Source: a virus. Taken from it: 58,885 nt of DNA. The stretch's first letter is position 1. Every line of letters begins with the position of its first letter. The notes beneath the pieces are model-generated. The model was not told where the DNA came from, did no database searches, and saw only the letters and a program-made list of their open reading frames with translations. Where the stretch lies: positions 1 to 58,885 of IMG/VR virus record IMGVR_UViG_3300020123_000348; one strand, written 5' to 3'. Positions 9,238 to 47,436 of this stretch are shown here, one piece after another. The position numbers were made by a program, and so were the translations under genes.

Positions 9238-9244
9238 CATCATA

Positions 9245-10416: not shown

Positions 10417-11078
10417 AAGTTGCTTTAATAACAGCTAATTTAGGTAATATAGATGAAGACATTCATTTAGATCAGATAGTAAAACAAGATTATGAATTTT
10501 CATTTTTCAATTTTCATTTAAATAGTTTGCCGTTTCCACTGCCAAACTTAGATAATAGGACAAAAGCAAGATATTTAAAAATCATGACTCATCGTTTTTT
10601 ACCTGAATACGATGTTTATGTTTGGATTGATGGAAGAATTAAAATAATTTCAGAACTATTTATTTCAACTTTTGTAAAACATTTAGAAAATAAAAAAGAA
10701 TTTGTTGTTATAACTCATCCAAAACGAAAAAGTATTTATGAAGAAATTGAATTCATATTGCACCAAATGAATAGTGGCGAACATTATTTAATAGGCCGTT
10801 ATGGTCATCAAGAATTAAGAAAAGAATTAGAGTTTTATAAAAGTGAATTATATCCAAATGAAAATGTTCCATTATTTTCATCAGGTGTTTTAGGAAGATT
10901 GAATAATGAAAAAGTAAATAAAGCTTGTGATGAATGGTTTTTAAGAAGTATTGAATTCTCTAATTTTGACCAAGCAATGTTATCATATATAATTTGGAAA
11001 CATGAATTGACTTCAAAACATTTATTATATGAAAACTGGTTGTTTGCAGTTATGGAACATAATAAGATAATTTACTAA
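10413..11078 (+). CDS. DUF616/TOD1-like glycosyltransferase 2
   Basis: 221 residues, ATGA overlap with the deacetylase. It shares the layout of the enzyme at 9245: N-terminal VALITANLGNIDE, a FFNF strand, YLKIMTHRFLPEYDVYVWIDGRIKI with the W-I-D signature, and ITHPKRKSIYEEIE corresponding to MHPDRNCIYDEA. A late SSGVLGRLNNEKVNKACDEW parallels the AATGLMIRNNKEE segment of the paralogue. The pair probably arose by duplication and may add different sugars. Confidence 0.72.
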   Translation: MKVALITANLGNIDEDIHLDQIVKQDYEFSFFNFHLNSLPFPLPNLDNRTKARYLKIMTHRFLPEYDVYVWIDGRIKIISELFISTFVKHLENKKEFVVITHPKRKSIYEEIEFILHQMNSGEHYLIGRYGHQELRKELEFYKSELYPNENVPLFSSGVLGRLNNEKVNKACDEWFLRSIEFSNFDQAMLSYIIWKHELTSKHLLYENWLFAVMEHNKIIY

Positions 11079-11584
11079 TGAAAAACATTGATTTTGGTTA
11101 TAGAGTTGCTCCAACTGATATTCATTTAGTTGGAAATAATTTAATCGGGGTTGAAGTTGGAGTTGATGTTGGAGCTCATGCAGAAGCATTATTGACTTTT
11201 TGTAGAATTGAAAAACTTTCATTAGTTGATATTTGGGACAATCCTCAACAATATGGTTATTGTTTAGGAAGACTTGAAACTAAATTTAAAAGAGGAAGTT
11301 TTGAAATGATACCAACTACATCTATAAAAGCAAGAGAATTGTTTGAAAATAATTCTTTAGATTTTATTTATTTTGATCACTTACATGATTATGATTCTGT
11401 AAAAAATGATTTGAATTTTTGGTTAATAAAATTGAAAAGAAAAGCTATAATAGGTTATCGTCATTATATGAAATATCCAGGACTTACAAAAGCAATTGAT
11501 GATTTTTTAAAAATGACTAATTTTAAATTTATTGTTGATAATGAAGAAATTATAATTTTTAATAATATAAGTAAAGATGAATAG
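11078..11584 (+). CDS. Class I SAM-dependent methyltransferase
   Basis: 168 residues, starting in the TAATG of the previous gene. Motif I is IGVEVGVDVGAHAEALL; the acidic ribose-binding end of strand 2 is SLVDIWDN; the motif II/IV region is NSLDFIYFDHLHDYDSVKNDL; and AIIGYRHYMKYPGLTKAIDDF is a lid-type segment common in the Methyltransf_24 group that works on sugars or antibiotics. Likely methylates the glycan made by the cassette. Confidence 0.72.
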   Translation: MKNIDFGYRVAPTDIHLVGNNLIGVEVGVDVGAHAEALLTFCRIEKLSLVDIWDNPQQYGYCLGRLETKFKRGSFEMIPTTSIKARELFENNSLDFIYFDHLHDYDSVKNDLNFWLIKLKRKAIIGYRHYMKYPGLTKAIDDFLKMTNFKFIVDNEEIIIFNNISKDE

Positions 11585-12149
11585 AATTGAAATCATCCAA
11601 CATTACATTGATAAGATTAAAGCTATTTCATATCTTGAAATTGGAGTTCAAGATGGTCAGAATTTTAATAAGATTGTTTGTGCTAAAAAGGTTGGAGTTG
11701 ATCCTGATAAAAATTCTAAAGCAACTGTAAATTTAACAAGTGATGAATATTTTGATACTCATACAATAGAAAAATTCGATGTCATATTTTTAGATGGTTT
11801 ACATCATTCAATGCAGTTATTAAAAGACATTAATAATGCTCTTAATTGCTTAGCAGATGGTGGCTATATTATATGCCATGACATAAATCCAAAAGGAGAG
11901 AAAGAACAATTAGTACCAAGAGAAACAAGACATTGGAATGGAGATTGTTGGTTAGCATGGACTATATTAAGAGCGACAAGAAGTGACTTAAAAATGTTTG
12001 TTGTAAATACAGATGAAGGTTGTGGAATTATAAGAAAAGGAAAACAAGAAACAATAAATATTGATTGTAATTTGACTTATGAAAGATTTAGAAATAAAAA
12101 AGTTTATTGGTTAAATTTAGTTGATGTTTCTCAATTTAAACATTTATGA
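11577..12149 (+). CDS. Class I methyltransferase (Methyltransf_24 type)
   Basis: 190 residues, overlapping the previous gene by 8 bases. Motif I SYLEIGVQDGQNFNKI is followed by VGVDPD (acidic residue for the SAM ribose), FDVIFLDGLHHSMQLLKDI, and LADGGYIICHDINPKG with the HD pair typical of this group. A later WNGDCWLAWTILRA helix and MFVVNTDEGCGII strand complete the fold. The gene at 12843 is a decayed relative of this one. Confidence 0.75.
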   Translation: MNRIEIIQHYIDKIKAISYLEIGVQDGQNFNKIVCAKKVGVDPDKNSKATVNLTSDEYFDTHTIEKFDVIFLDGLHHSMQLLKDINNALNCLADGGYIICHDINPKGEKEQLVPRETRHWNGDCWLAWTILRATRSDLKMFVVNTDEGCGIIRKGKQETINIDCNLTYERFRNKKVYWLNLVDVSQFKHL

Positions 12150-12727
12150 AAATCTGGTATTTCACTCCTTATGCTTTAGATGGTAATCTTGGAAAAGCTT
12201 ATAATGAATATTGTGAGTTAGTTAAAAATGAGAATGATTGGATTTGTTTTATTGATGGCGATGTTGCTTTTTTAAATTCATATTGGGGAAAACATTTTGA
12301 AGATCTTATTAAAAAATATCCTAACGCTGGAATCATAACAGCATATACTAATAGGGTTGGTTGTTTAGAGCAATGTTTGAATGGAATGATTTCAGATGAG
12401 AGTGATATAAAAATCCATAAACAAATAGCTTATAAATGTTCAGCAGAACACTATTTAGAAGTAAAAGAAATCAATCATGTCATATCAGGTCATATAATGT
12501 TATTTAAAAAGAAAACTTGGATTGATGCTAAAGGATTTCCAGAAACGTTGAGAGATAAGGATTTGAACAAATATAGTAAGAATATGGCAACCGTTGATAA
12601 TCGCTTTTCAAGAAGAGTTTTGAATTTAGGAAAGAAAATCTTACTTGCGAAAGGAATGTATGTTTTTCATTACTATAGATTGAAAGAAGGTATTCATTCA
12701 AAAGAACATTTAGGGTTATTAACATAA
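12146..12727 (+). CDS. GT-A fold glycosyltransferase
   Basis: 193 residues, last gene of the cassette operon (ATGA overlap). It has an N-terminal NLGKAYNEYCELVKNENDWICFIDGDVAFL with a DxD-type metal site (DGDV), a segment AGIITAYTNRVGCLEQC, and GHIMLFKKKTWIDAKGFPE, a pattern seen in GT2-like enzymes where the G-F positions shape the acceptor site. The C-terminus ends MYVFHYYRLKEG. It transfers a sugar from a nucleotide donor; acceptor unknown. Confidence 0.75.
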   Translation: MKIWYFTPYALDGNLGKAYNEYCELVKNENDWICFIDGDVAFLNSYWGKHFEDLIKKYPNAGIITAYTNRVGCLEQCLNGMISDESDIKIHKQIAYKCSAEHYLEVKEINHVISGHIMLFKKKTWIDAKGFPETLRDKDLNKYSKNMATVDNRFSRRVLNLGKKILLAKGMYVFHYYRLKEGIHSKEHLGLLT

Positions 12728-12745
12728 CAATGTTCAAAACTTTTT

Positions 12746-12806
12746 CATTTTATTTTAAGTAAAATTTTTTTATCTCAAATAAAAGTTATAATTTTGCATC
12801 GTCAAA
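12746..12806 (+). repeat. 61-bp repeat containing an extended promoter, copy 1
   Basis: Identical to 54858-54918 except at one base (G at 12796, A at 54908). The repeat contains the TTTTATTTTAAGTAAAA block, a TTATCTCAAATAAAAG element and the -7 box TAATTTTG at 12789-12796. It drives the gene at 12843. Confidence 0.85.
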
Positions 12807-12842
12807 TTTAAAACTAATGTTTCAAACTAAAAACTTATCGCA

Positions 12843-13469
12843 ATGGAAAATGATAAAATCATCAATGCTCTGATTAATCACTTTGACTACAAAATCTATC
12901 TTGAAATAGGCACTGTATATAAAGATGATTGTTTTGATTATGTTACTTGTAATAATAAATCAAACGTAAGTCTTGAGTATAAAAGTCAAACAGATCACTT
13001 TTGTGATACTGACTATTATTTTAATTTCTTTGGAAAAGAGCAAAGAAAAGATATTATATTTATAGATAATCCTAAAAGTTGTGAACAACTATTAAGAGAT
13101 TTGGATCATTCTCTTTATAACTTAAATGATAATGGAGTTATACTTATAAATAAATGTTTACCAAAGTTAAAGTTTAAAAGAGATGTTAATAATAAACTTT
13201 ATGTTGATTGCGATTGCGATTTTTATAAAGCTTGGTTATATCTTAGAAAAACTCAAGATGAATTAGAAATGTTTGTCATTGATAATCTTGATATGGAAGA
13301 TAATACAAGTTGTGGTGTTCATAATCATGGAGTAGGTGTAATATTTAAAGGCAAACAAAAGCTTTTGAATATAGAATCAATTGATATTTCTTATAAAGAT
13401 TTTATTGAACATAGAAAAAAACTAATGAATACAATTACAGTTGATGAATTTGAAAGTAAATTTATTTAA
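12843..13469 (+). CDS. Degenerate methyltransferase-like protein
   Basis: 208 residues. It aligns by eye along its length with the methyltransferase at 11577: IYLEIGTVYKDDCFDYV against SYLEIGVQDGQNFNKI, SLEYKSQTDHFCDTDYYF against VDPDKNSKATVN..DEYF, IIFIDNPKSCEQLLRDLDHSL against VIFLDGLHHSMQLLKDINNAL, and NDNGVILINKCLP against ADGGYIICHDINP. The glycine-rich SAM loop and the catalytic HD/GLHH residues are lost. It may be a non-catalytic partner or a drifting duplicate. It has its own strong promoter, which argues against simple decay. Confidence 0.6.
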   Translation: MENDKIINALINHFDYKIYLEIGTVYKDDCFDYVTCNNKSNVSLEYKSQTDHFCDTDYYFNFFGKEQRKDIIFIDNPKSCEQLLRDLDHSLYNLNDNGVILINKCLPKLKFKRDVNNKLYVDCDCDFYKAWLYLRKTQDELEMFVIDNLDMEDNTSCGVHNHGVGVIFKGKQKLLNIESIDISYKDFIEHRKKLMNTITVDEFESKFI

Positions 13470-23827: not shown

Positions 23828-24346
23828 ATGGATAACTTAATTGATAAAAAGAAAATATCTGCAAAAGATCTTGAAGGAAATTTTGAAGAACATAAAACTC
23901 AACAGCTTGAAAATTTGCTTCAAGTTTTACTTTCAACAGAACATGATGATGATATAACTGTCAATCTCATTATAGCTGAATTATTGAATCGAGGAATCTC
24001 AAAAGATGAAATCAAAGAGAAATCAAAAGATAAGAAAGTCAAAGATAAAATTGAAAAAGCTTTTGACATTTTAGGAATTGATAAGATTCAAAAAGGAACT
24101 CTGCATAAGACTCATAAATATCTTAAGATAGTTAATGGTCATTATATTTACAAAGAAAATGAGATGACAAGCAAAGACCATTCAGAAGCCGCAAGTCATC
24201 ATAAAATGGAATTTGAAAAGTTGAATAAGACAAATAAAATTGATGAAAAGCATCGTAAGAAACTGAAATATCATCAAGATGTAGCTGACAGGCATGAGAA
24301 GTTGGCAAAAGATAAAATAAAAACAGAAAAACTTTCTAATAAGTAA
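23828..24346 (+). CDS. Small modular head-region protein with linker and His-rich helix
   Basis: 172 residues. Helical N-terminal part (residues 1-70) with a degradation-style LLQVLLSTEHDDDITVNLIIAEL, then motifs IEKA (75-78) and IQKG (87-90), then the linker GTLHKTHKYLKIVNGHYIYKENE, then paired His helices (DHSEAASHHKMEFEKLN and YHQDVADRHEKLAKDK). The linker and His helices recur in other phage head-associated proteins. It lies two bases from the next gene. Probably packaged and cleaved; function unknown. Confidence 0.6.
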   Translation: MDNLIDKKKISAKDLEGNFEEHKTQQLENLLQVLLSTEHDDDITVNLIIAELLNRGISKDEIKEKSKDKKVKDKIEKAFDILGIDKIQKGTLHKTHKYLKIVNGHYIYKENEMTSKDHSEAASHHKMEFEKLNKTNKIDEKHRKKLKYHQDVADRHEKLAKDKIKTEKLSNK

Positions 24347-24348
24347 AA

Positions 24349-27117
24349 ATGAAGCCATTCCCAGCGGGGACAATTCGTGATTGGGAAGGTGGAACTTTCA
24401 TTAAAGCTTGTGAGCCTTCAAAATACAACCATTCAGGTTGGATTCCATTACAAACAAGTCAAGCATTAGAATCAATAGGAAGAGAATGTGATTCATTAGC
24501 AAGTAGTTGTTTAAGTAAGAAAGAACCTATCGCTGGAGAAATCGCACTTGATCACGAAATTGATAACTTTGAAAAAGATGCTAATGGAGATCATCCATAT
24601 ACTGCAAATGACTTTAAGAAATATGAAGGTTTTTATGGTTCAGGAAGATACTCATTTCGTAATGAATTTTCACGAAGATTCATGGCTGAAAAACTTGCGT
24701 TGCAAGAAGCTATCAATAAAGCTTACGATGATGCGATGCCAAGTAATGCTATGAAAGGATTAGATGCAGCTACAAAAAAAGAAATAAGAAATGAAGTCAA
24801 AGCTAATTTCAATTATAATTACGAGCCATTCAAAACAACTCAAGCAAATGAACTGAAAGGAATCATTGAACGCACTAAAAAGCAATTGGATATTGGATTT
24901 AATTTTGAGGGTGAGCAGAAGAAAGTTTATGATGAGGCTTTAAGTGTTGTAAAATCTCTTCCATTAGAATATGATAGAATAGCTAAAAAGCGAAAACAAA
25001 AAGAAGATGCATTAAAAGCAATCAATGAGATTTTCAAAGATAACTGGGGAGCAAGAGAGGCAGTAAAGAAAAAATTAGATGATGCTTATGGAGAATATGT
25101 AAGGAAATTCTCAGATCAAATAAGAGAAGGCGAAGGCAAATCACAAGAAGAGACTTTTGGAGTTACAATTGATGAACCTTATGAAACATTTTATCCAAAG
25201 TTATTTGACAAGATTCAATTAGACAGAAATAAATTCAACAAATATAAAGTTGAAGACATTGAGTTAGATAAATATGAAGGAGAAGAGATTGCTTTAGAAG
25301 GAATTTCATTCATTTTGAAAAAAGATAAAAATGGACATTTATATTTAGTTAGATCTAATCAAATATCTGGAAATCCTAAATTTAATATAGATGCTATTAA
25401 AGACCATGAGCGATTATATCCACAAGGATATTTAGAAATTGATAATCGACTTGAATTACCAGTAAAACAAGGTTTAGTTGATAAGCTAAACATGTTTGAT
25501 TTATTGAGTCAGCATATTGGGGAAGAAATTGAAACTATTACGAATTCCCATTATGGTAAATCAAAAAATATTTATAAAATAAAAAAAGACAAAGAGAATA
25601 AAATTTATTTAGAAGATTTTGTTGGAAACAGAAAAAACTTTAATGAATATTCAAAAACATATAGTGTTGTAGCAGAACAATTACATAAACAATCCAAATC
25701 ATATCCTTTCAATGAACTTCTCTATTTACGTTTTGAAACTTTATATAGTAAACAATTTGATGGTGATTGGAATGAATCGATGTTACCAGTTATTTACAAT
25801 ATCGAAAAGTTATTGAATACATTACCACTAGGGCATGCTATCAATAATGGCGAATTGAATCAAATCACAAATAAAGAATATGGTGACAATAATGGTTATG
25901 CTTGGTATTCATCAAATGAAAGACGAATCAATTTCAGTGACAAAGCGGCGAATGCTTTTTCAATATGGGGAGATTTAAAAGGTTCACAAGAATTCAATTC
26001 AGTTGTTGCTCATGAAATTGGTCATGCTGTAAGTTATAAATTGGGAAGAAAACCTAATTTAAACTATCGTAAATTTGGAAAAGAATGCGGCTGGGATTGG
26101 TCATATTTGAGGCCGTTGGGAGACGATTATATAAAAACAGGAGATCAAAAAGGAGTTGAAAGAACTGGAAGTGAATCTCATCAACCATTATTGACTGCTT
26201 ATGCTGAGACAAGTCCTGAAGAAGCTTTTGCAGAATATTACTCAATCTATGTAAATAACAAAGAAGCCATTGATTCATATTTAGCAACTAACAACAAAGA
26301 ATTCTTATGTAAAGTGAGTAAAATAGTTGCTCAATCAAAACCAGATAGTGATTTGAAAAATGTGAAAGATTATAGTGGTTTTCAGAATAAAGATCAATAT
26401 AAACAAGATAAAGAATGGTTAGCTAATAGAGTAAATAAGAGAACTATTGAAATTCCAAAAGAAATCGAAAATCTTCATTTACAAGATAAGAAAAATTTTG
26501 ATGTTGAATTGATAAATCCTTGGATGGTAAAATTTGACAAAGGAATCAAAGAAGAAGCTGAATATATAAAAACAGGTTTATATAATGCTCGCATAAATGA
26601 ACCTCATCCAATAGTTGTAATTCAAAGCAAAACTAATATATATCATTGTTTGAGATATGAGAATTATTGTATGGCATTCAAGAGAACACATAAAATGGCT
26701 CCGGCATTGATTATAAGTGAAGAAGCGTATTCACAATTAAGTCAAAAATTCACTAAAGAAGAAATCATTGATTATGCTATATATTTTTTAAGAGATCGAA
26801 AAGTACCATTGCAAAATAATGTAGCTAAATTTAAAAAAGGATTAGAATATAGGAATGAAGTTTTAAGTGTTGAAGATCTGGTTCATAATAAAAACCGCTT
26901 TTTAGCAATGAAAAAAATATTTGATTCTCCTTCATTACAAAAAGCTTTAAAAGAATTATTTGGTTTGAATCATCTAAGAGATGTTTTTGCAATCAATCAA
27001 CCAATTCAAGATAATGCATTAGAATTACAGAAAAGTGAGTTGAATAGTATTCTATCGGAATTGGAAGAAAATGCATTAGAGCTTAATCTTGTAATGCGAG
27101 AAATAGATTCTAATTAA
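24349..27117 (+). CDS. Large virion-type metallopeptidase (HEIGH zincin)
   Basis: 922 residues. It opens with a polyvalent-type linker (AGTIRDWEGGTFIKA, ..SGWIPL) in residues 6-34. The zinc site is SVVAHEIGHAV (His555, Glu556, His559), with the third ligand probably in TSPEEAFAEYYSIY (Glu624-629), as in gluzincin-type phage and toxin peptidases. Helical spacers fill residues 80-300; a beta region lies near 310-370; a further unassigned domain (720-830) contains HPIVVIQSKTNIYHCLRY. Candidate protease motifs LQKA (863-866) and LQKS (893-896) are near the C-terminus. Substrate unknown; ejected or structural use is inferred. Confidence 0.72.
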   Translation: MKPFPAGTIRDWEGGTFIKACEPSKYNHSGWIPLQTSQALESIGRECDSLASSCLSKKEPIAGEIALDHEIDNFEKDANGDHPYTANDFKKYEGFYGSGRYSFRNEFSRRFMAEKLALQEAINKAYDDAMPSNAMKGLDAATKKEIRNEVKANFNYNYEPFKTTQANELKGIIERTKKQLDIGFNFEGEQKKVYDEALSVVKSLPLEYDRIAKKRKQKEDALKAINEIFKDNWGAREAVKKKLDDAYGEYVRKFSDQIREGEGKSQEETFGVTIDEPYETFYPKLFDKIQLDRNKFNKYKVEDIELDKYEGEEIALEGISFILKKDKNGHLYLVRSNQISGNPKFNIDAIKDHERLYPQGYLEIDNRLELPVKQGLVDKLNMFDLLSQHIGEEIETITNSHYGKSKNIYKIKKDKENKIYLEDFVGNRKNFNEYSKTYSVVAEQLHKQSKSYPFNELLYLRFETLYSKQFDGDWNESMLPVIYNIEKLLNTLPLGHAINNGELNQITNKEYGDNNGYAWYSSNERRINFSDKAANAFSIWGDLKGSQEFNSVVAHEIGHAVSYKLGRKPNLNYRKFGKECGWDWSYLRPLGDDYIKTGDQKGVERTGSESHQPLLTAYAETSPEEAFAEYYSIYVNNKEAIDSYLATNNKEFLCKVSKIVAQSKPDSDLKNVKDYSGFQNKDQYKQDKEWLANRVNKRTIEIPKEIENLHLQDKKNFDVELINPWMVKFDKGIKEEAEYIKTGLYNARINEPHPIVVIQSKTNIYHCLRYENYCMAFKRTHKMAPALIISEEAYSQLSQKFTKEEIIDYAIYFLRDRKVPLQNNVAKFKKGLEYRNEVLSVEDLVHNKNRFLAMKKIFDSPSLQKALKELFGLNHLRDVFAINQPIQDNALELQKSELNSILSELEENALELNLVMREIDSN

Positions 27118-27134: not shown

Positions 27135-30100
27135 ATGAATGTACAAGAATCTTTAGAAGTAATTAATCAAGCTTTCAATCAAGGTTTAATAACTGGTGAG
27201 AAATACTTTGAGACTCTTGAAAAAGCTCGTGGTAAAGTAGCTTTTTTAGATGGAACGATTTCAAAGAATGGTTTATATAGAAAAGATTCATCAGCTAAAA
27301 GTGGTTGGACGAAGATTGAAAATAAAAGAAAGAAAAAAGTTGTTGAAGAGAAAAAAGAAAGTAATAGTGAAATATTTATTCCAGAAGGAAAATTTCAATT
27401 AAAAATTAAACCATTAAAGGAAGGAAAAGATCCACTAATAGTTGAAGCAATTTCAGATAATTATGGAAAAGGAATTACAGTTTATATGGATGGAAAAAAT
27501 TATTATTTAACTGGAAAACAAATTCAAAATTTCTTAAAAACAGGAGAATATGAAATTATAAAAAAAGAAATCTCAAAACCTATTCAAGCTAAAAAACTAA
27601 ATGAAGATGATGAAGATGAAAACTTCGACCAAAAAGAACAATTTGAAACTAAAGAGCAATTAAATGAATTTATAAAAAATGGAGACATTACAGAACAGCA
27701 AGTTGAAGAATTCGGACAAAGAACAGAAGAACAAATTACAGAGCTTGAACCAACTATTAAGACTCTTGAAAATGAGACAACTGATCTCACAAGAACGACT
27801 ACGGAGAAACTTAGTAGATTAGATGATCAAATTGATGAGCTTATAAATAGCTCACATAAAGCGACTCCATTATTAGATGCTTATGAAAAGCGATTTGATG
27901 AATTGGATATTGAGACGTCTCATAAAGATCCAGATAAAATTGAAATTGGAGATTATGTAACCACAAAACGAGCTTTCAAAAAAGAGCCAATGAATGGTTT
28001 TGTAACTAAAATAGAAACAAAATCAATTACCATAAAGCATCCAAAAGGTGGTTGGACAGGTGACGAGAATGACTTTAATTTTATTCAGGAACATAAAGTC
28101 TCGAAAACTGATGTTGAGAGTTATTATAAATTGAAGAAGAAAATAAATGTAAATTACAATGATAATATTAGTCTTAATGAAAGTGAAATATCCGAAGATT
28201 CAACTGAATATAAACGAAACAGTGGATCCAAAAGTGAAATACAAAACTTCGAAGAATTTGAAAAAGAGCAATTACCAAGATATGCTGAAAAAGTTAAATC
28301 ATTAATTGAAAAAGTAATTGCTAAAGAATATCTTTCGGATGAAGAAGTTTCAGATTTAGGTTTTAGTATTATTCAATTAAATAAATATCAATATCAAGAT
28401 ATTTCTCAAGATTTTATTTATATTGGAACTTATTTGTCTATTGGGCGAAACAAAATTTTATTCAATAATGAAAAAACAAAAGAAACATTTATAAATAAAG
28501 GAAAAGAGCTTTTAAAACAATATCAAGATAATAATATTCAAAAGTCTGAAGAATGGTTTTTCAATCTCTTAGAACGAAAGAAACAACTGCAAGAACAACT
28601 TATAAACATAGTTGATGCAAATCCAGAATTGATAGATGATGAGATAGTAAAATCTTCAACATTAGATACTTTAGTTCCAGGATTTACAGATAATCTAAAA
28701 GAAGTTCTTCATAAAAATAAAGTCAAAGGAAAACAACATTTCTCAGATGCAATTATCATGAATGACAAAGGAGAAATTCTTATGTTATTTAGAAACATTA
28801 ATAAGAATCCAGAATTATCACATAAATGGTCATTACCAGGAGGACATATTGACAAAGAAGAAAATGCACAAGAAGCATGTATTCGTGAAACTCTTGAAGA
28901 AACAAATTTAGTTGTTGATTCATGTCAATTGTTTTATGTTAAAGAATGTGATAAAGCTATAATTAACTTTTTCAAATGCGTTATTGACTTAAATCAATTA
29001 CCTATTTTAGATGCTATGGAACATTCAAATCTTAAATGGGTGAGCAAAACAGAACTTCAAGATTTAGATTGTATTTATGACTTAAAAGATACGTTGAATA
29101 AATTGGTATTTCCTGATTTAGGTGGATTAGATAAAATTGAAAAAGAAGTTGAAATTGAGGATGATATTGTTAATGAGATAACTAAAGCTCGAAAAGTTGG
29201 AAGTTTAAATAAAGTTCATAAATTTATTAGAAAAGAAAATGGTGAATATATTTATGAAGATAAATTAGAACCAAATGTTCATAATAAAATTGATTGTAAT
29301 GAAGTTTTTGAAAATAAAGTATTTCAAAAAAACATAACAGATTTAATTAAATGGTTTAAAAAAATATTTAATGTTAAAGAGCAACATAATATTCCACTTG
29401 ATAAAAGAAAAGATCTTTGGGATGAAAATAAATTTTGGCAAAAAGATAATTTTATAAATAAATCTTTTATTGAAAAAATAAAACTTGAAAATATTTTTCC
29501 ATCACAAGAATCAACATTTATAGAACCACTTTTAGATAAACTTAATGGTTCTAAAAGTCATAGTACAGATTTACCTTTAGGTTTATTAATTGGAGATACT
29601 GGAAAAGTTTTATTATTTGATGGACATCATAGAATAGTTACTGGAATCATTAAAGGAGAAAAAGAATTTGATATTAAATTAATAAAAGTTGGAACATATC
29701 ATTTTTTTAAATATTTTGATAAGTTTAAAAACGATATTGAAAAATCTGAAATAAGTATCATTTTAAAATCAGTTGATGCTTCAATTTCAATCATTCAAAA
29801 AGCATTTGATGCAGATCAGATTAGTGAAGAAGAATATTTTAATGCACTTAAAAAAGCTCGTCATGCACATCATAAATATTTGAGGATTGAAGGTAAGAAA
29901 TACATCTATAAAGAGAATGAAGGAAAGTTAAAAGTTGATTGGAACAAAGATCTCATAAGTGATGAACAATATTTTCAAGCATTAGAAAAAGCTAAACATA
30001 TTGAAAAACGAATTCATACATCTAAAAAGACTGGAAAAAAATGGTTGGAGAATCATGAGGTTGGAAGTGATGAAGAAGAGAAATTAATTCAAACAAATGG

Positions 30101-31394
30101 CGAACTTGATAATTATGTCGAAGAACTCACTAAAGATAATGTTGAATTAAAATTTGAAGCAGGAGAAAAATCATTGCATCTTAAAATCATTGATGTAAAT
30201 AAAAATAGAAACAAAGGTCTTGGTTCTCAAGTTATGAATAAAGTAATTGAATGGGCAGATAAGAATAAAATCGTTATAGATTTAGTTCCAGCTGGAAGTT
30301 ATATTAATTCAAGAACTTTTCTTATTAATTGGTATAAGAAATTTGGATTTATTGAAAATAGAAAAGAAAATTCAAATGATGATTTTCTTTATATGTATAG
30401 ATTACCAAAACAAAAAGAAGAACCTTCAACTCAACATCAATCATCTCAATTGATAACTTATTTAGAACAACTTTCAACTTTGATGAAAGATAATCCTCAA
30501 CAAAAAGCATTTTTTGATTGGGAGAAAAACAATGCTAAACAAGTGAAAATAGTCTCAACAGCAGAAATACGATTAAAATATCCTAAGATTGATGAATATT
30601 TAAAACAAGAATGGAATCAACCAGAAGTCAAACAATGTTATTCAAATGCAGCTAAATTAGCAACTAATATTGAGAGAGTAGAATATATTGAAGGCATGAT
30701 TTCAATGATGGGAATTCCTATTGATCACGCTTGGAACAAGGTTGGTGATGAATATTTTGACATAACTAAAGATATTGCTTTGAGTGATGCAACAATTTCT
30801 AATGATGAATATCTATCAATCATAGAGTTAGATACAGAAACTACATTAGAATATATGTTAGAAACTCAAGTTTATGGCGGTTATATTCAACAAAAATATA
30901 TGCGAGATAATGGATTAACAAAACCTAAAAGTAAAACATATAAAATAGAGAAAGCTGAAAAGAATAAAAAGATAGAACTTAATCAAAATGAAAAGAAAGA
31001 AAAGAAACTTCAACTTCATGAATATGAAGATGATGACTTAAAATTGCACGCAACAAGAACAAGTGAAAAGCATTTGAAACGAATTATAAGTGAATCATCA
31101 AATCCAAGATTAAGACAATTTGCTCAAGAAGAACTTGATAATCGCGATCCAAAGAAACAAAAAGAAGTAGAAAAAGAAGATAACTTATTTGATTTGATGA
31201 TTAGTGAAGAACCGGATATTAAAAGAGGTCGTAAACCAGAAAGTGAAACGATTCATTTTGAAAAAGAACCACCGAAAGATGTCATTGAAAAACTTCATGA
31301 ACATAGAATCAAATATATGATTGGAACAACAGAAATTGAGGATGAAGAAGAAAAGTTACAAAAAGCTTTAATGTTAGAAATGGAATTAATTTAG
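27135..31394 (+). CDS. Multi-domain polyvalent protein: Nudix, ParB/Srx-like, GNAT, papain/transglutaminase-like
   Basis: 1419 residues. In order: an AFxxGxIxxExYF..LEKAR unit (10-32) with linker; a beta domain (IEIGDYVTTKRAF, 270-320); a Nudix hydrolase with the box GHIDKEENAQEACIRETLEE (570-589, final Gly replaced); linker VHKFIRKENGEYIYEDK (694-710); a ParB/sulfiredoxin-like region with LLFDGHHRIVTG (827-837); two more linker units (HHKYLRIEGKKYIYKENE; RIHTSKKTGKKWLENHE); a GNAT acetyltransferase (NRNKGLGSQVM acetyl-CoA loop, 1024-1034; NWYKKFGF); and a Cys1168-His1198-Asp1209 triad region (QCYSNAAKLA, DHAWNKVGDEYFDIT). Seven candidate protease motifs lie mainly between domains (residues 31, 471, 871, 890, 953, 1274, 1411). 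Likely a packaged polyprotein of host-directed enzymes; this is inference. Confidence 0.75.
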   Translation: MNVQESLEVINQAFNQGLITGEKYFETLEKARGKVAFLDGTISKNGLYRKDSSAKSGWTKIENKRKKKVVEEKKESNSEIFIPEGKFQLKIKPLKEGKDPLIVEAISDNYGKGITVYMDGKNYYLTGKQIQNFLKTGEYEIIKKEISKPIQAKKLNEDDEDENFDQKEQFETKEQLNEFIKNGDITEQQVEEFGQRTEEQITELEPTIKTLENETTDLTRTTTEKLSRLDDQIDELINSSHKATPLLDAYEKRFDELDIETSHKDPDKIEIGDYVTTKRAFKKEPMNGFVTKIETKSITIKHPKGGWTGDENDFNFIQEHKVSKTDVESYYKLKKKINVNYNDNISLNESEISEDSTEYKRNSGSKSEIQNFEEFEKEQLPRYAEKVKSLIEKVIAKEYLSDEEVSDLGFSIIQLNKYQYQDISQDFIYIGTYLSIGRNKILFNNEKTKETFINKGKELLKQYQDNNIQKSEEWFFNLLERKKQLQEQLINIVDANPELIDDEIVKSSTLDTLVPGFTDNLKEVLHKNKVKGKQHFSDAIIMNDKGEILMLFRNINKNPELSHKWSLPGGHIDKEENAQEACIRETLEETNLVVDSCQLFYVKECDKAIINFFKCVIDLNQLPILDAMEHSNLKWVSKTELQDLDCIYDLKDTLNKLVFPDLGGLDKIEKEVEIEDDIVNEITKARKVGSLNKVHKFIRKENGEYIYEDKLEPNVHNKIDCNEVFENKVFQKNITDLIKWFKKIFNVKEQHNIPLDKRKDLWDENKFWQKDNFINKSFIEKIKLENIFPSQESTFIEPLLDKLNGSKSHSTDLPLGLLIGDTGKVLLFDGHHRIVTGIIKGEKEFDIKLIKVGTYHFFKYFDKFKNDIEKSEISIILKSVDASISIIQKAFDADQISEEEYFNALKKARHAHHKYLRIEGKKYIYKENEGKLKVDWNKDLISDEQYFQALEKAKHIEKRIHTSKKTGKKWLENHEVGSDEEEKLIQTNGELDNYVEELTKDNVELKFEAGEKSLHLKIIDVNKNRNKGLGSQVMNKVIEWADKNKIVIDLVPAGSYINSRTFLINWYKKFGFIENRKENSNDDFLYMYRLPKQKEEPSTQHQSSQLITYLEQLSTLMKDNPQQKAFFDWEKNNAKQVKIVSTAEIRLKYPKIDEYLKQEWNQPEVKQCYSNAAKLATNIERVEYIEGMISMMGIPIDHAWNKVGDEYFDITKDIALSDATISNDEYLSIIELDTETTLEYMLETQVYGGYIQQKYMRDNGLTKPKSKTYKIEKAEKNKKIELNQNEKKEKKLQLHEYEDDDLKLHATRTSEKHLKRIISESSNPRLRQFAQEELDNRDPKKQKEVEKEDNLFDLMISEEPDIKRGRKPESETIHFEKEPPKDVIEKLHEHRIKYMIGTTEIEDEEEKLQKALMLEMELI

Positions 31395-31828: not shown

Positions 31829-33592
31829 ATGAGTGATAAAATAAGATTTGGCATACCAATTGACATTATTAAAAGCAAAAATGCTAAAGGTGATGATGTT
31901 TATAAATTTAAAGGATTAGCTTCAACTAATGATAAAGATAATCAAGGAGAAACCTTGTTAGCTAAACAATTTGATTTGAATGATTTTAAAAATGTCAATT
32001 ATAATCATCAAGGTGCAAAAGATGCGAACGCTGTTTTAGGAGAAATTACATCTCATAACTTTGATAGAGCTGGTTTGAATGTCGAAGGAGAATTGTGGGG
32101 AGATATGCCGATGACTCCTGCTGTTGTATCTTTGATGAAACGAAAAGCTAAACAAGGTAAGAAATTGCAACTTTCAGTTGAAGGTCAGGTTTTGCAACGA
32201 GGTGCAAACAAATGTTCAAAATGTGGTAATTCATTAGAAAAATCAAGTGTATGTACTAAATGCAAAGCAAACACTCAAGGATTTAATAAGATAGTGAAAG
32301 CTAAATTAACAGGTGTTGCAGTTACATTGAATCCAATCAATGGTAATACGTTTTGTGATTTGATTGAAAAAGGGATTACTAATAATGAGTGGCTTTATTC
32401 TGATGAAGATGAATTGTTGATGAAAGCCGTTGATACTAAAATGAAAAAAGGAAAATCAATCACTAATGAAAGTGATGATGATGGAGATGATGATATGCAA
32501 ATGAGTGAGAAAGATGATTTGGAGAAATCTAATTGTCCTAAATGTAAAACATTACTTCAAAAAGGACTTTGTTCAAAATGTGGTTATACAATAGAAAAAG
32601 CTATGTCAGCAGGTTCTGATACTGGAACTGATATTACAAATAAGCAATCAAATGGTTCTGCTTTAAAGAAAGAAGATGTTGAAAGTAAAAAGAATTTATC
32701 TAATACTTTAAGTAAGTCTGAAGCTTACTCTACTATCTTTGATTATTTTTACCCTACAATTGATTTTAAAAAAGCTGGTGAAATTTATAAATTAACAGAA
32801 AAAATAAGTAAAATGGAAAAGAAGCCAATTTCAAAGGAAACTTTAAGTAAAGCATTCGAAATAATCGAACTTGCCATTAAAGAAAATGAAAATTCAGAAG
32901 TCAATGAAGCTATTGATTTGATTAAATCAGATTTCAATGATTTAGAAAAATCAGAACAAGTTGAAGAGCTTATAAAAGCAGGATATGATGAAGAAGTAGC
33001 TAACAATGCTGCTGATAAGCATGAAGATGATGAGAAGGATAAGAAAAAGAAGAAGAAACATGTTGCAAAAAAGAAAGATGATGACAATGAAGAAGAGGAA
33101 GATGAAAACTTTGAAAAAGCTTTAGGAGCAATTGAAGAAATTTCAATCAATCAAGATATGAAATTCGGAGCTCTTGGAGTCATTATTAAATCTCAATCCG
33201 AAACAATTGAGAAAATTTCCACTCAATTAGAAGAAACTACTGATGCTTTGAATGAAGCAAAAGAAGTGATTCAAAAATCTTTTGATTTGATTGAGAAAAT
33301 TTCGAAAACTGCAGTTAAATTCAACCGTCCAATTGGTGGAGCAAACGGCGTTGAACGATTTAAAGAAAATAAAGAAAATGGAAACAAGGTTTATAATATC
33401 AATAACAGAATTCAAAAAGCTGAATTGATTCAGACTCTTGATAATTTAAGCAATCTTGGTGGAAAATTCAATGAAGATCTTTTGAAAGCAGCGAGTGATT
33501 TGGAAATCGCCGGTGTTTTTGGAGACAGGAGAATGATTCCATATTTGAAAGATGTTCACAATATTGAAGTTGTAACATCTGATGGTGAGTAA
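31829..33592 (+). CDS. Prohead protease fused to scaffold
   Basis: 587 residues. The first ~170 follow HK97-type (U35) prohead proteases: FKGLASTNDKDNQGETL, NVNYNHQ with catalytic His60, GLNVEGEL, the LQLSVEG strand with Ser116, and AKLTGVAVTLNPIN. A zinc knuckle (Cys129, 132, 142, 145) is inserted between the Ser strand and the next core strand; a second one lies at 236-252. The rest is Glu/Lys-rich coiled scaffold (300-500) with an acidic/basic block at 399-427. Nine candidate cleavage motifs fall in the protein (first at 136-139, last at 528-531), as expected for a scaffold destroyed by its own protease. Directly upstream of the capsid gene. Confidence 0.82.
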   Translation: MSDKIRFGIPIDIIKSKNAKGDDVYKFKGLASTNDKDNQGETLLAKQFDLNDFKNVNYNHQGAKDANAVLGEITSHNFDRAGLNVEGELWGDMPMTPAVVSLMKRKAKQGKKLQLSVEGQVLQRGANKCSKCGNSLEKSSVCTKCKANTQGFNKIVKAKLTGVAVTLNPINGNTFCDLIEKGITNNEWLYSDEDELLMKAVDTKMKKGKSITNESDDDGDDDMQMSEKDDLEKSNCPKCKTLLQKGLCSKCGYTIEKAMSAGSDTGTDITNKQSNGSALKKEDVESKKNLSNTLSKSEAYSTIFDYFYPTIDFKKAGEIYKLTEKISKMEKKPISKETLSKAFEIIELAIKENENSEVNEAIDLIKSDFNDLEKSEQVEELIKAGYDEEVANNAADKHEDDEKDKKKKKKHVAKKKDDDNEEEEDENFEKALGAIEEISINQDMKFGALGVIIKSQSETIEKISTQLEETTDALNEAKEVIQKSFDLIEKISKTAVKFNRPIGGANGVERFKENKENGNKVYNINNRIQKAELIQTLDNLSNLGGKFNEDLLKAASDLEIAGVFGDRRMIPYLKDVHNIEVVTSDGE

Positions 33593-33632: not shown

Positions 33633-35132
33633 ATGGGTTCAGAATTTACCTCTTTAGAGGATTACAACAATGGCTTCTCAGATGGGGAAGTTGGAAGCAC
33701 GGCAGAGCTTTTAAAAGCTATGCAAGCAGGACAAATCACAGGTCGTGATACTGCAAATTTAGATTTAACTATTGAGCCTTTGAAAGCTGAATCGTTAGAG
33801 AGAACACTGAAACTCTTAGATTTCAGGACAAAAGACATTCGCTTGTTAAATGCAATGCCTAAAATGACAGCTTACAATACTGTAGAAGAATTTTTGCAAT
33901 TGAAAAGCTATGGTACTGATCGTGGAGGTTTTTACAATGAAGGCGAACTTTCTGATGTTGAAGATTCAACATACGTAAGACGTTCTGAATTGATTAAATA
34001 CATTCAGGTTACAGGTGAAGTTACGTTGCAAGCTCAAATGGTTCATTCATTTATTGATGCTTACAAAAAAGAAGTTGAAAACAAGACAATGTGGGTAATG
34101 CGTAAAGCAAATTCCGCAATGACTAAAGGTGATGCTGATATTGTACCACAACAATTCAATGGTTTATTCAAACAACATGCAAATATCGGATCAGGTGGTG
34201 GTCTTGATTATTTGTATGCTGATTTGGAAACTTATATGACAAGTGATGTTGTCATTGACAAACGTGGAGAATCATTGACTCAGTTCGATATTGAGAATGC
34301 AGCTGTAATTGGCGATGGACATTATGCTACATTTACTGATTTATTTGCTCCAACAAGTGCTATTTCAGCTTTGATTCAAGATTATTTCAAGATTCAAAGA
34401 TTGATTAAAGGAACTAATAATGGAGCAGTTGGTGTTACGATTCCTTCAATTGATACATCGATGGGTAACATTAAATTGTCAAGTGATAAGTTCATGAAAG
34501 CTGATTCTTCAAGACTTTTGACTGATGGGGCAACATCTCCAAAAGCACCAACTATTCCAACAATTTCTTCTCAAGCTATTGAAATAGATTCTCACAGTAA
34601 AGTAACTGCTGCTGACGCAGGTTCTCGTTACTATGCTGTTGCGACTGTAAACCGTTATGGTGAATCTGCTCTTGTTCAAATGTCAGCTTCTGCATTAGCA
34701 ATGGTTGCTGGTTATTCTGCTCAATTAGGATTTGATTACACAAATCAAGTTGGTAGTCCAACTGGTTTCAGAGTATATTCAACAAAGGTTACGACTGCTG
34801 GAGCAAACACTGGATTGAAGTTTTATCCTTTGTTTTATGTTTCAACGGCTCAACGTGCCGCTGGATATGATGGCGCCGCTGCTAATTATGTTTGGGATCG
34901 CGCAAGATTCTTGCCGGGAATGGAACAAGCATTTATGACTCAAATGGATGAGGAAGTAATGTCATTCAAGCAATTAGCTCCAATTTCAAAATTGGATTTG
35001 GCTGTGATTTCGATGAGCAAGCGATTTATTGCATTTAATTTCTGTTGCCCTAATTTATATGCTCCACAAAAGATGGTGAGGTTTGTAAATTGTTCACCAA
35101 CATTGAATGTGTCAGATCCTGATCTTGCGTAA
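33633..35132 (+). CDS. Major capsid protein
   Basis: 499 residues, between scaffold and terminator, as usual. N-terminal arm (1-45) with ELLKAMQAGQ, a possible maturation site at 28/29. Then a long-helix region (ESLERTLKLLDFR), an E-loop-like NEGELSDVEDSTYVRRSELIKYIQVTGEVTLQAQM, and ENKTMWVMRKANSAMTKGD. An Ig/Fn3-like insertion spans about 310-410 (RYYAVATVNRYGESALV, GSPTGFRVYST). The last part, MDEEVMSFKQLAPISKLDLA, is typical of this capsid group. HK97-fold coat protein by context and pattern. The upstream promoter is weak (TATATTTA near 33618). Confidence 0.85.
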   Translation: MGSEFTSLEDYNNGFSDGEVGSTAELLKAMQAGQITGRDTANLDLTIEPLKAESLERTLKLLDFRTKDIRLLNAMPKMTAYNTVEEFLQLKSYGTDRGGFYNEGELSDVEDSTYVRRSELIKYIQVTGEVTLQAQMVHSFIDAYKKEVENKTMWVMRKANSAMTKGDADIVPQQFNGLFKQHANIGSGGGLDYLYADLETYMTSDVVIDKRGESLTQFDIENAAVIGDGHYATFTDLFAPTSAISALIQDYFKIQRLIKGTNNGAVGVTIPSIDTSMGNIKLSSDKFMKADSSRLLTDGATSPKAPTIPTISSQAIEIDSHSKVTAADAGSRYYAVATVNRYGESALVQMSASALAMVAGYSAQLGFDYTNQVGSPTGFRVYSTKVTTAGANTGLKFYPLFYVSTAQRAAGYDGAAANYVWDRARFLPGMEQAFMTQMDEEVMSFKQLAPISKLDLAVISMSKRFIAFNFCCPNLYAPQKMVRFVNCSPTLNVSDPDLA

Positions 35133-44920: not shown

Positions 44921-46582
44921 ATGGCAACACAACATATATTTGGTGGAAAAGTAATAACAATTCCAGATGTTTATTCTCAAATTTTAAGTGGTTTTAAAAA
45001 TCCCCCAAGCGATGTTGATTATGGACACGTACTTATTATTGATACAGGTTCGGGAGCAGGTGGTGGTGGAGGAGCGGGAATAGCTGGAACATTATCAAGC
45101 GGAACCGATGCTGTTTATGGTTTTGATAATATTGATGACTTTAAAAATTTTATTGAAAAAAATTTTTGGTACTTACTTGCAAAACCATTGTTTGAACCAT
45201 TAACAGAAAATCAAATCAAACAACCGGGAGTCTCTAAAATAACTTTTATAAAAGCAGCAACGACTGTGCCGGCATCAATGACATTTCATCCAACCGGTGA
45301 TTTTTCAGATTCAATGGGATATGCTGGAACTATTATTATCAAAGTAAGAAACGAAGGTTTAGTTGGAAATGGAGCTCTGAATACCAATTCAGAATTAAGC
45401 CGAGGTTATGCTTTTAAAGTAAAAGCTGGAATAGTTGATTCAACTAAATTCATCATGAATTTTTATCGTGGAACATTCAGAGGTTTAGATCAAAACAACA
45501 ATCCAATTGGAGGAATCGCAGAAGCAGATACAACAGCTCAATTACTTTGCCAGTCAGATGAATTTGCAACATTAGCAGAATTAGTAACCTGGATGGAATC
45601 ATCAACTGATTTCGGAACATATTTTTATTACGATTCTGCAAACAGTTCAGTTACTCACAGAGGTTATGTTGATGCAGATGTTTTGGTTGATTATCTGGAT
45701 TATACACTTGCATCAGGCGGAACTGAATCATACACCGCAGATGATTTAACTGCTGCTTTATTAGCTGTGAAAAAATTACCTTGTGATTTTATATTCTGTG
45801 ACAAATACGGTTCAAATTCATATCACGCTAATAACTTAGCAATTGTTGATGCTGCACAAAACGATATGAAATTTAAACCACAGGTTTATATTGCAAGTGG
45901 AAGCACAAAAGCACAGTTTACAGCCAATTCAATAGTTGATGCTCAAGCCTACGACAGTCAGCAAGTCACAATCTGTCACGGTGGATCGAGAATCTCAAAT
46001 AGAGCGAGTTCAATTGGATATTATCAATTCGATTCGTATTATACAGCAGCCATTGCTCTTGGCCGTGAAGCTGGATTATTTCCGTCAAAACCAATAACTT
46101 TTAAAAACATCTCAGTTAATGGATTACAACATGTATTAAACGAGACAGAAGAAAAACAAGCGTTAAAATATGGCGTATTAACAGTGCGTCCAGATGCAGG
46201 TGTTTTTGAATGTATTAAGGATGTAAATACACTTCAAAACAATCTTTATTTACAAAATTCTGATGGATCAACTGCAAATAAACAGTTATATCGTATTTGT
46301 GCTTATTTGAATAAGTTGATTATGATTCGCGCTAAAGCAGAACTTTTAAAAGATAAAAACGGAACAAATAGGAATACACTCTCTGAAAGTGACGTGAATC
46401 AGTGGCTTAAGAGACTATTAAAATCCGTTCAAGCAACTCCAACTCAAGATAATATTATTCTTAGTTTTGAAGATCCAATTACAACTCGAGAATCAGATGC
46501 TTATTTTTCTAATTACCGTTTCATTCCAAACACTGAAATAGCGTTCCTTTTCTTCACTGGTTCAACTATTGAGATTAATTAA
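44921..46582 (+). CDS. Contractile tail sheath protein
   Basis: 553 residues. N-terminal GGKVITIPDVYSQILSG is the start typical of sheath proteins, followed by a GSGAGGGGGAGIAG glycine loop. The middle contains AAVKKLPCDFIFCDK and DAAQNDMKFKPQVYIASG. The conserved C-terminal half includes SSIGYYQFDSYYTAAIALGREAGL, KQALKYGVLTVRPDAGVFECIKDVNTLQNN, DVNQWLKRLLKS and AFLFFTGSTIEIN. This order matches the sheath fold that polymerises around the tube and contracts at infection. It defines the phage as a myovirus. The stop overlaps the homing endonuclease start. Confidence 0.88.
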   Translation: MATQHIFGGKVITIPDVYSQILSGFKNPPSDVDYGHVLIIDTGSGAGGGGGAGIAGTLSSGTDAVYGFDNIDDFKNFIEKNFWYLLAKPLFEPLTENQIKQPGVSKITFIKAATTVPASMTFHPTGDFSDSMGYAGTIIIKVRNEGLVGNGALNTNSELSRGYAFKVKAGIVDSTKFIMNFYRGTFRGLDQNNNPIGGIAEADTTAQLLCQSDEFATLAELVTWMESSTDFGTYFYYDSANSSVTHRGYVDADVLVDYLDYTLASGGTESYTADDLTAALLAVKKLPCDFIFCDKYGSNSYHANNLAIVDAAQNDMKFKPQVYIASGSTKAQFTANSIVDAQAYDSQQVTICHGGSRISNRASSIGYYQFDSYYTAAIALGREAGLFPSKPITFKNISVNGLQHVLNETEEKQALKYGVLTVRPDAGVFECIKDVNTLQNNLYLQNSDGSTANKQLYRICAYLNKLIMIRAKAELLKDKNGTNRNTLSESDVNQWLKRLLKSVQATPTQDNIILSFEDPITTRESDAYFSNYRFIPNTEIAFLFFTGSTIEIN

Positions 46583-47436
46583 TGTATGGTTATATTTATA
46601 TAACGATTTGTATAGTTAATAAAACTATTTATATTGGTCAGCATAAAGCTAAACAATATAATCCTAAATATTTGGGATCTGGAACTATTTTATGGAATGC
46701 TATTAATAAACATGGATGTGAAAATTTTGAGAACACTCAAATTGATGTAGCTTCTTCTAAAGAAGAACTTAGTAAAAAAGAAATTTCTTGGATTTCATAT
46801 TTTCGTAATAATGGTTTTATAATGTATAATATCTCAACTGGAGGAGAATGGGGTGATAATTTTACAAATCATCCAAACAAAGAAATTTATAGAGAAAATA
46901 TTAGCAAAGGTTTAAAAGATTCTGAAGAATTTCAAACAACAGTTAGATCTCCGAAAAGAAGAAAAAATGTAAGTGATGGAATGAAAAATTCTGAAAAATG
47001 GAAACTTTCTCATAATACAAAAGAATATAAAGAAAAATCAAGTAAAGCTTTAACTGGAATTGAACGTAAAAAAGGAACCTGTATTTATTGTGGAAAAACA
47101 ATGCTAATGAGTTTATTAATTCAATTTCATAATGATCATTGTTATCACAATCCACTTATTAATATTGAAGCAGAAAGATTAAGACGTAAACCTAAAAAAG
47201 AAACTTTAGAAAAAAGAAGCAAATCTTTAAAATTAGTTAAAAGAACTAAAGAATGGAATGAAAAAATAGGTCTTGGTAATGTTGGAAAAAATCCTACAAT
47301 TGAAACAAGAAAGAAAATGTCAGAAAAAGCAAAATTAAGAAAAAGAAAACCTTTTACTAAAGAACATCTTAAAAACTTAAGTATTGCTGCAATTAAAAGA
47401 GAAAGAAAAAAGAAAGAACTAAAATTAGCATCTTAA
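46582..47436 (+). CDS. GIY-YIG homing endonuclease, second copy
   Basis: 284 residues, paralogue of the gene at 6548. It has GYIYITI and TIYIGQH, then NPKYLGSGTILWNAINKHG, KKEISWISYFRNNGFIMYNISTGGEWGD, NUMOD3-like modules (NISKGLKDSEEF, KKMSEKAKLRKRKPF) and one zinc knuckle GTCIYCGKTMLMSLLIQFHNDHC. It sits exactly on the sheath stop codon (TAATG) and before the tube gene. Here it carries one complete knuckle, whereas the first copy has two. Confidence 0.87.
   Translation: MYGYIYITICIVNKTIYIGQHKAKQYNPKYLGSGTILWNAINKHGCENFENTQIDVASSKEELSKKEISWISYFRNNGFIMYNISTGGEWGDNFTNHPNKEIYRENISKGLKDSEEFQTTVRSPKRRKNVSDGMKNSEKWKLSHNTKEYKEKSSKALTGIERKKGTCIYCGKTMLMSLLIQFHNDHCYHNPLINIEAERLRRKPKKETLEKRSKSLKLVKRTKEWNEKIGLGNVGKNPTIETRKKMSEKAKLRKRKPFTKEHLKNLSIAAIKRERKKKELKLAS

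Follow-up and report, generated by a model that had tools for sequence, protein, structure and literature searches.

A 1419-residue multi-enzyme protein encoded beside the capsid genes of an SPO1-like phage is a probable effector polyprotein with capsid-protease sites between its modules

Why should a phage encode, immediately 5' of its protease/scaffold and major capsid genes, a single protein that strings several unrelated enzymes together? The window, i.e. the whole 58,885-nucleotide stretch of DNA that was analysed, belongs to an SPO1-like myovirus of Bacteroidota-type bacteria. A sequence-only reading had proposed that this protein, P0001, is a polyprotein of Nudix, ParB/Srx-like, GNAT and papain/transglutaminase-like effectors that is cut apart in the procapsid. 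The genes concerned are listed below (↓ marks a cut throughout).

23828..24346, + strand: 172-aa protein, with IEKA/IQK↓G and the HKYLKIVNGHYIYKE module in common with P0001
24349..27117, + strand: adjacent 922-aa protein with a HEIGH zincin motif (homologue in relative L012 at 2.7e-139)
27135..31394, + strand: polyprotein P0001, a single uninterrupted ATG ORF of 1419 aa, directly upstream of the next two genes
31829..33592, + strand: head maturation protease/scaffold (phrog_1028, 8e-24), with conserved catalytic His (NHQ) and Ser (LSVEG)
33633..35132, + strand: major capsid protein (MCP; phrog_752, 4.8e-62), with a predicted cut ELLK↓AMQAG at residue 28

The reading frame is real, as had been reported. 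An assembly artefact was ruled out because the ORF is intact and relatives have equivalents of 800-1395 aa at the same locus; the head-cluster position of the gene is conserved in many relatives. A search of viral contigs with the whole protein returned zero relatives because the patterns used fell in its variable parts.

Four enzyme-like domains, the ParB-like one only weakly assigned, lie in P0001.

28728..29126, + strand: Nudix hydrolase domain, residues ~532-664 (Pfam 4.7e-14; PDB MutT/Nudix chains 1.9e-8)
29487..29720, + strand: candidate ParB-like domain with GHHRI at 830-834 (phage ParB-like proteins matched by tblastn at 2e-3 and 9e-3)
30156..30410, + strand: GNAT acetyltransferase domain with an RNKGLG loop at 1025-1030 (Pfam 0.004; PHROG 4.5e-10)
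30462..30902, + strand: C/H/D domain with Cys1168, His1198 and Asp1209 (conserved triad; AF2 pLDDT 89.9; solo gene in other phages)

The Nudix and GNAT identities are firm. The Nudix box GHIDKEENAQEACIRETLEETN spans residues 570-591 and has an intact catalytic RExxEE, with the final G replaced by N. In GNAT, the acetyl-CoA loop (R/Q-x-x-G-x-G/A) is invariant in homologues, the family profile matches PDB N-acetyltransferases at 1.5e-4, and the closest sequences are the GNATs of DarB-like/PLxRFG polyvalent proteins. All the landmark residues that the sequence-only reading had pointed out, including the GHHRI loop and the Cys-His-Asp positions, are where it placed them, whereas two of its names went further than the data. 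The ParB/Srx-like label is weakly suggested by the GHHR motif, the low-scoring tblastn matches and a ParBc_2 match in one of the phage relatives that they revealed; the AF2 model of this region has a pLDDT of only 39. A profile comparison of the ParB relatives with P0001 was circular because P0001 sat in the alignment, and it was excluded from the evidence. Searches with the ParB segment or the C/H/D segment as single sequences gave no matches; C/H/D relatives were recovered once an alignment was used as the query. Cys1168, His1198 and Asp1209 are invariant in six homologues and, in a 25-sequence alignment, the latter two are invariant and the Cys is kept in at least 90%. The triad has the order seen in papain/transglutaminase-like enzymes, but the C/H/D model (pLDDT 90) has no PDB match at E<0.001, giving that fold no support, and its significant matches in a viral library are uncharacterised phage proteins only. 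P0001 thus joins several unrelated enzymatic domains in one chain, as polyvalent proteins do.

The cut motif could be anchored on capsid proteins. In Listeria phage A511 the mature protein is annotated to begin at residue 24, directly behind DALK (ALK↓S), and the capsid protein of phage 812 begins with SFQTG in PDB chain 9row, after DVVK (VVK↓S), at the same point. In the window's family, K↓A are the residues aligned with this cut, and the K-A pair is present in essentially all of ~80 relatives. The strict motif was defined as [ILVMF][EQ]K↓[ASG] and a looser version as [ILVFM].K[ASG]. The specificity of the protease and the cleavage of P0001 we infer from this homology, whereas domains, sites, enrichment and placement are read from the sequence directly.

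P0001 has exactly seven strict sites, after residues 30, 470, 870, 889, 952, 1273 and 1410, the same cut points that the sequence-only reading had proposed. Those beyond the N terminus are located as follows.

28533..28547, + strand: predicted cut site IQK↓S (residue 470)
29733..29993, + strand: site cluster at 870, 878, 889, 907 and 952 (870, 889 and 952 being strict), which also holds hairpin copies 2 (882-908) and 3 (928-953)
30942..30956, + strand: predicted cut site IEK↓A (residue 1273), immediately after the C/H/D domain
31353..31367, + strand: predicted cut site LQK↓A (residue 1410)

None of the seven falls inside a recognised domain of P0001, and Nudix cores are avoided by strict sites (1 inside versus 54 outside, p=2e-4). 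The claim that sites lie between the domains nevertheless holds only in part: GNAT and C/H/D share one predicted fragment (953-1273) with no strict site between them, and the sole site at the Nudix/ParB-like boundary is the weaker ITK↓A at 684. Some of the predicted cuts could be cryptic.

By shuffling, 1.2 strict sites are expected in P0001 against the seven found (5.8-fold). Part of this enrichment is post hoc, since it was in this protein that the motif was first noticed. The looser motif occurs 14 times (6.4 expected), and control motifs compared with shuffling show no clear enrichment in P0001. The strict motif is found 340 times in 67 protease/scaffold proteins (28 expected, 12-fold) and 60 times in 25 Nudix proteins of relatives (12 expected, 5-fold); the relatives are not phylogenetically independent. 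The window's own protease/scaffold (31829..33592) has 20 broad sites versus 3.7 expected; the SPO1 scaffold has 11 versus 1.3, and the SPO1 tail sheath has 0. No enrichment is seen in 37 giant GNAT polyvalent proteins from other phage lineages (24 strict sites, 26.7 expected, ~1x) or in solo C/H/D proteins (2 versus 2.1, ~1x). Tail proteins are mildly enriched (1.6x), so the background of the motif is not zero, and the polyproteins of relatives L022, L028 and L012 have one strict site each. One MCP cut junction is found copied into the Nudix protein of relative L010 and into two protease/scaffold proteins. P0001 therefore resembles substrates of SPO1-type prohead proteases in being encoded beside a protease with conserved His and Ser, and in carrying an over-represented, lineage-specific motif that matches the known MCP cut.

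Non-enzymatic modules accompany the sites.

27147..27227, + strand: hairpin copy 1 (residues 5-31), ending in LEK↓A at 30 (7.8e-12 with the hairpin HMM, of which it is the seed)
29175..29258, + strand: site ITK↓A (684), then the post-site module HKFIRKENGEYIYE, found again at 913-927 and in ORF 23828-24346
31014..31160, + strand: helical signature module (residues 1294-1342), with 15 of 16 matches at E<0.01 in proteins upstream of the MCP

The repeats of the post-site module have shuffle p values of 0.002 to 0.0005. The hairpin and helical modules are almost restricted to this locus. Hairpin copy 1 is a candidate N-terminal propeptide or targeting signal, and the helical module a candidate packaging module. 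When a phage collection was searched with a consensus of the helical module written by hand, nothing matched. Separately, residues 390-430 resemble a MuF-like minor-head segment, suggestively at most (shuffle p=0.011, hhalign probability 43); the match was not reproduced with other MuF homologues.

Relatives shuffle the enzymes. The same locus encodes Zeta+Nudix+2H/Acb1-like+ART, Nudix+ART, zincin+Nudix, Nudix+GNAT or C/H/D+Zeta, the exchanged modules being Zeta toxin, ADP-ribosyltransferase (ART), Acb1-like 2H phosphoesterase, GNAT and zincin. L012, a close relative, has C/H/D and Nudix in reversed order. Chryseobacterium phage MA9V-3 and Bacteroides phage DAC19 each encode Nudix as a gene of its own, with one strict site.

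We consider it likely that P0001 is a capsid-packaged effector polyprotein, cut by the SPO1-type maturation protease, whose fragments are injected with the DNA. Cleavage in the procapsid, as predicted from sequence, is well supported because the A511/812 anchor, the lineage-specific enrichment with its negative controls, the avoidance of enzyme cores, the swapping of modules and the copied MCP junctions all argue for it; this part of the earlier proposal gains strong independent support, although strict sites leave some domains joined. P0001 would be expressed late, alongside the head genes, and recruited into the procapsid; the hairpin at its N terminus, the helical module close to its C terminus, or both may be responsible for this. 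There the protease, with a hydrophobic-x-K↓A/S/G specificity, would cut it together with scaffold and MCP. The strict sites predict a propeptide (1-30), 31-470, 471-870 (Nudix and ParB-like, or two fragments should the protease also cut at 684), short pieces of 871-952, 953-1273 (GNAT and C/H/D) and 1274-1410. Enzyme fragments would enter with the DNA and act early. Probable targets of the Nudix fragment are nucleotide signals, of the ADP-ribose/NAD type or other; just as well, it could protect the phage from ADP-ribose-type signals. A single gene would thus probably load several separate enzymes into the head for the next host.

The motif could instead go mostly unused, with P0001 an ordinary polyvalent protein that is delivered uncut or processed by the zincin encoded next to it (24349-27117). 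We hold this to be unlikely: the published model for polyvalent proteins invokes zincin autoprocessing (PMC5512222), and the zincin gene adjoins P0001 and is conserved in L012, but the motif fits the capsid protease rather than zincins, polyvalent proteins of other lineages lack the enrichment, and partner proteins contain copies of MCP cut junctions. Similarly improbable, and a little more so, is a core- or scaffold-like P0001 that is shredded at its sites and expelled from the prohead, like T4 core proteins or the long propeptides of giant phages, its domains mattering in assembly only. Scaffold proteins have the same sites, and the 870-952 cluster resembles the multiply cut propeptides described for SPN3US (PMC10052503). 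Yet site density in P0001 is about one-third of the scaffold's, enzyme cores are spared, active-site residues are conserved, and the enzymes exchanged in relatives include toxin types (Zeta, ART, 2H) that have no role in assembly. Least credible by far is an unpackaged, cytoplasmic late multifunctional enzyme placed in the head cluster by chance. Packaging of P0001 is a prediction, but head-cluster position, site enrichment and shared modules are all conserved in many relatives, and a survey of NAD/ADP-ribose functions (PMC9503650) has already argued for packaging of phage Nudix products whose genes lie close to head genes or are fused with them.

If the packaged polyprotein is real, a capsid maturation protease has a second role, that of splitting a single chain into several effectors for delivery. 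The cut motif and shared modules would then offer a way to find new injected effectors, any domain between such sites in these phages being a candidate host-takeover or anti-defence enzyme, and the old question of polyvalent-protein processing would become testable in isolated relatives such as DAC19 and MA9V-3. We give even chances to a broader idea, that Bacteroidota-type SPO1-like phages use a polyprotein in the style of eukaryotic viruses, in which one late gene with exchangeable enzyme modules between capsid-protease sites, and shared packaging modules, yields equal numbers of several injected effectors, such cut cassettes having allowed evolutionary exchange of toxin-type and anti-defence enzymes.

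Known systems share parts of this arrangement. In SPN3US/phiKZ, the prohead protease acts on ejected head proteins and cuts their propeptides at multiple points; as far as the consulted part of PMC10052503 goes, these propeptides are removed and cutting of effector from effector is not reported, unlike what we propose for P0001. T4 IPI-III and Alt are packed in the prohead core and lose short N-terminal targeting peptides to gp21, IPI being an injected anti-restriction inhibitor (PMC9958956); they represent one effector per gene with one N-terminal cut, whereas P0001 joins several putative effectors in a chain with internal sites, and the predicted protease specificity is K↓A/S/G. P1 Dar proteins are internal, co-ejected anti-defence proteins, the N terminus of DarA being removed by the prohead protease Pro (PMC12810830), but they are separate genes with a single N-terminal cut, in contrast to one chain with several predicted cuts. 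Closest are the polyvalent proteins (PMC5512222, Iyer et al. 2017; NAD/ADP-ribose survey, PMC9503650), large phage proteins that, like P0001, join unrelated enzymes (GNAT, ART, ParB, peptidases) in one chain and are proposed to be delivered with DNA. Their processing is ascribed to built-in zincins and occasionally a fused assemblin-like peptidase, whereas P0001 has capsid-protease sites between its modules and, unlike published polyvalent proteins, belongs to a locus in which Nudix recurs as the constant module.

P0001 is encoded by a single intact ORF (1419 aa) in a 58.9-kb virus record, in which genes were called as simple ORFs. Gene order is P0001, an 88-aa ORF, protease/scaffold and major capsid.

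Genes of the head cluster
27135-31394, + strand: P0001, intact ORF
between P0001 and the protease/scaffold gene: 88-aa ORF
31829-33592, + strand: head maturation protease/scaffold gene (phrog_1028, 8e-24)
33633-35132, + strand: major capsid gene (phrog_752, 4.8e-62)

The major capsid protein is SPO1-like. Its closest named relatives come from Chryseobacterium phage MA9V-3 (54%) and the DAC19 group of Bacteroides phages (37%), followed by Herelleviridae, so the host probably belongs to Bacteroidota. SPO1-like capsid genes (30-32%) also occur in contigs of a Myxococcales MAG (contig of 3.5 Mb) and a Planctomycetota MAG (L207, L208). Elsewhere in the window, a 185-aa protein preceding the portal gene (4240-4797) has five loose cut motifs (1.0 expected, p 0.005) and is a candidate head protein. 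Translations alone reveal two related GIY-YIG-like homing-endonuclease-type genes adjoining the portal and tail sheath genes (6548-7510 and 46582-47436), and a group of glycosyltransferase- and methyltransferase-like ORFs in the late region (9227-13469).

The protease cut point is fixed in relatives by two experimental records. Capsid proteins of the family share an invariant K-A near residue 28 (ELLK/AMQAG in the window, the slash marking the predicted cut). The mature A511 capsid protein is annotated from residue 24, after DALK, and the phage 812 capsid sequence in PDB 9row begins with SFQTG, which DVVK precedes in the longer 5lii sequence; both cut points align with the family K-A. The window protease retains the conserved His and Ser.

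P0001 contains seven strict motifs, [ILVMF][EQ]K/[ASG], vs 1.2 expected (after residues 30, 470, 870, 889, 952, 1273, and 1410, with a weaker ITK/A at 684), a partly post hoc count, since this protein is where the motif was first read. Weight attaches instead to results from scaffold proteins, relatives, and negative controls. Among non-redundant proteins of relatives, which are not independent samples, strict sites number 340 vs 28 expected in protease/scaffold proteins, 60 vs 12.2 in Nudix proteins, and 117 vs 72 in tail-side proteins. SPO1 has 11 sites in its scaffold (1.3 expected), 8 in its protease (1.6 expected), and none in its tail sheath. With the loose motif, [ILVFM].K[ASG], the window's protease/scaffold protein scores 20 vs 3.7 and P0001 14 vs 6.4, and reversed, shifted, and E-for-K variants show no enrichment in P0001 or other head proteins of the window. 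Two independent negative controls were flat, i.e. 37 large GNAT polyvalent proteins from other phages (24 vs 26.7 expected) and 24 solo proteins with the Cys/His/Asp domain of P0001 (2 vs 2.1). Because lineage proteins are enriched and both controls are flat, the sites belong to the window's protease lineage, rather than to these domains or to big lysine-rich proteins as a class.

The sequence-only reading placed the cut motifs mostly between effector domains, which agrees with their distribution: none of the seven strict sites in P0001 lies within an identified domain (p=0.07 on a small number of sites), and Nudix cores have 1 strict site inside and 54 outside (p=2e-4), or 6 and 139 loose sites (p=2e-7). 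The N-terminal 60 residues of head-cluster proteins are rich in sites, a pattern that removable targeting peptides like those of T4 internal proteins (PMC9958956) would produce. Of the proposed effectors, Nudix (residues ~532-664) is certain, its catalytic box (570-591) being intact save for the final glycine. GNAT, weak by Pfam, is clear by family comparison: its R-x-x-G-x-G acetyl-CoA loop is invariant with GNATs of giant DarB-like/PLxRFG polyvalent proteins, and the profile of that family matches N-acetyltransferases in PDB. The ParB-like assignment retains its GHHRI motif, but database matches are weak and the single-sequence structure model is poor (pLDDT 39). Similarly, Cys1168, His1198, and Asp1209 are kept in distant homologues, but the papain/transglutaminase name is not established because the confident model (pLDDT 89.9) matches nothing in PDB; significant E-values in a viral library were with uncharacterised phage proteins only. 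Elsewhere this domain is a stand-alone small phage gene, and viral contigs L098-L123 encode a family of such proteins (~160-190 aa) in which the Cys/His/Asp set is conserved and for which PDB offers no matching fold.

Alongside the sites, three elements recur. A helical hairpin, AFDxDxISxEEYFxALEK/A, occurs at residues 5-31, 882-908, and 928-953 of P0001; 19 of 20 search matches (E<0.5; nine had served as seeds) lie 5' of a capsid gene, the other being a Nudix protein. A post-site module, HKYIRxENGxYIYKE, has two copies in P0001 and one in the neighbouring ORF 23828-24346. A helical module of ~50 aa, LAxHAKxTSExxLKKxIxxSxDxxLRxAAxxELDRR (residues 1294-1342, window 31014-31160), recurs in head-cluster proteins of nine relatives (L012, L018, L020, L021, L025, L026, L027, L028, and L030). 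In a search seeded with four sequences, 15/16 matches were upstream of the capsid gene; the module has no Pfam match and is a candidate packaging signal. The hairpin resembles the capsid junction (IIQK/AFDADQIS vs LLK/AMQAGQITG), and a Nudix protein of L010 (438-1802, residues 333-368) carries a plain copy of the capsid N-arm, VKKAMQAGNTTGTDTTNQSLTIQPLK. Two protease/scaffold proteins also contain copies (L030:8206-9054, from residue 199; L082:4104-6446, from residue 222). We consider this natural evidence that these proteins share the capsid protein's processing signal.

Module swapping is evident in relatives, many of which have a Nudix gene just 5' of the protease and capsid genes. Nudix stands alone in MA9V-3 (235 aa) and DAC19 (226 aa), and in others is fused to varying partners.

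Domain combinations in relatives
L025:2818-6102: Zeta toxin, Nudix, 2H/Acb1-like phosphoesterase (anti-CBASS family match, 3e-4), and ADP-ribosyltransferase in one gene, cut sites flanking domains
L020: Nudix and ART-PolyVal
L005: zincin and Nudix; preceding gene, GNAT and ART
L027: Nudix and GNAT
L096: Cys/His/Asp domain and Zeta toxin

In L012, the Cys/His/Asp domain precedes Nudix, the reverse of P0001. Immediately 5' of P0001 lies a gene for a 922-aa protein with a HEIGH zincin motif (24349-27117), also kept in L012 (E=2.7e-139).

We propose that the P0001 chain would enter the procapsid and, as the anchored protease specificity suggests, be cut alongside the scaffold and capsid proteins. 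This would yield 1-30, 31-470, 471-870 (alternatively two fragments, 471-684 and 685-870), several small pieces of 871-952, then 953-1273, 1274-1410, and 1411-1419. Enzyme fragments may then be packaged, injected, and act on the host, by analogy with T4 Alt/IPs (PMC9958956), P1 Dar proteins (PMC12810830), SPN3US ejection proteins (PMC10052503), and the polyvalent protein concept (PMC5512222; PMC9503650). An Aravind-group survey describes Nudix domains as typically stand-alone except in eukaryotic RNA-virus polyproteins (PMC9503650). In the open-access literature searched, we found none describing a phage polyprotein whose several effectors are set apart by sites for the maturation protease. 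The components are each of a known kind: polyvalent proteins, Nudix enzymes that are packaged, and trimming of ejected proteins by a prohead protease.
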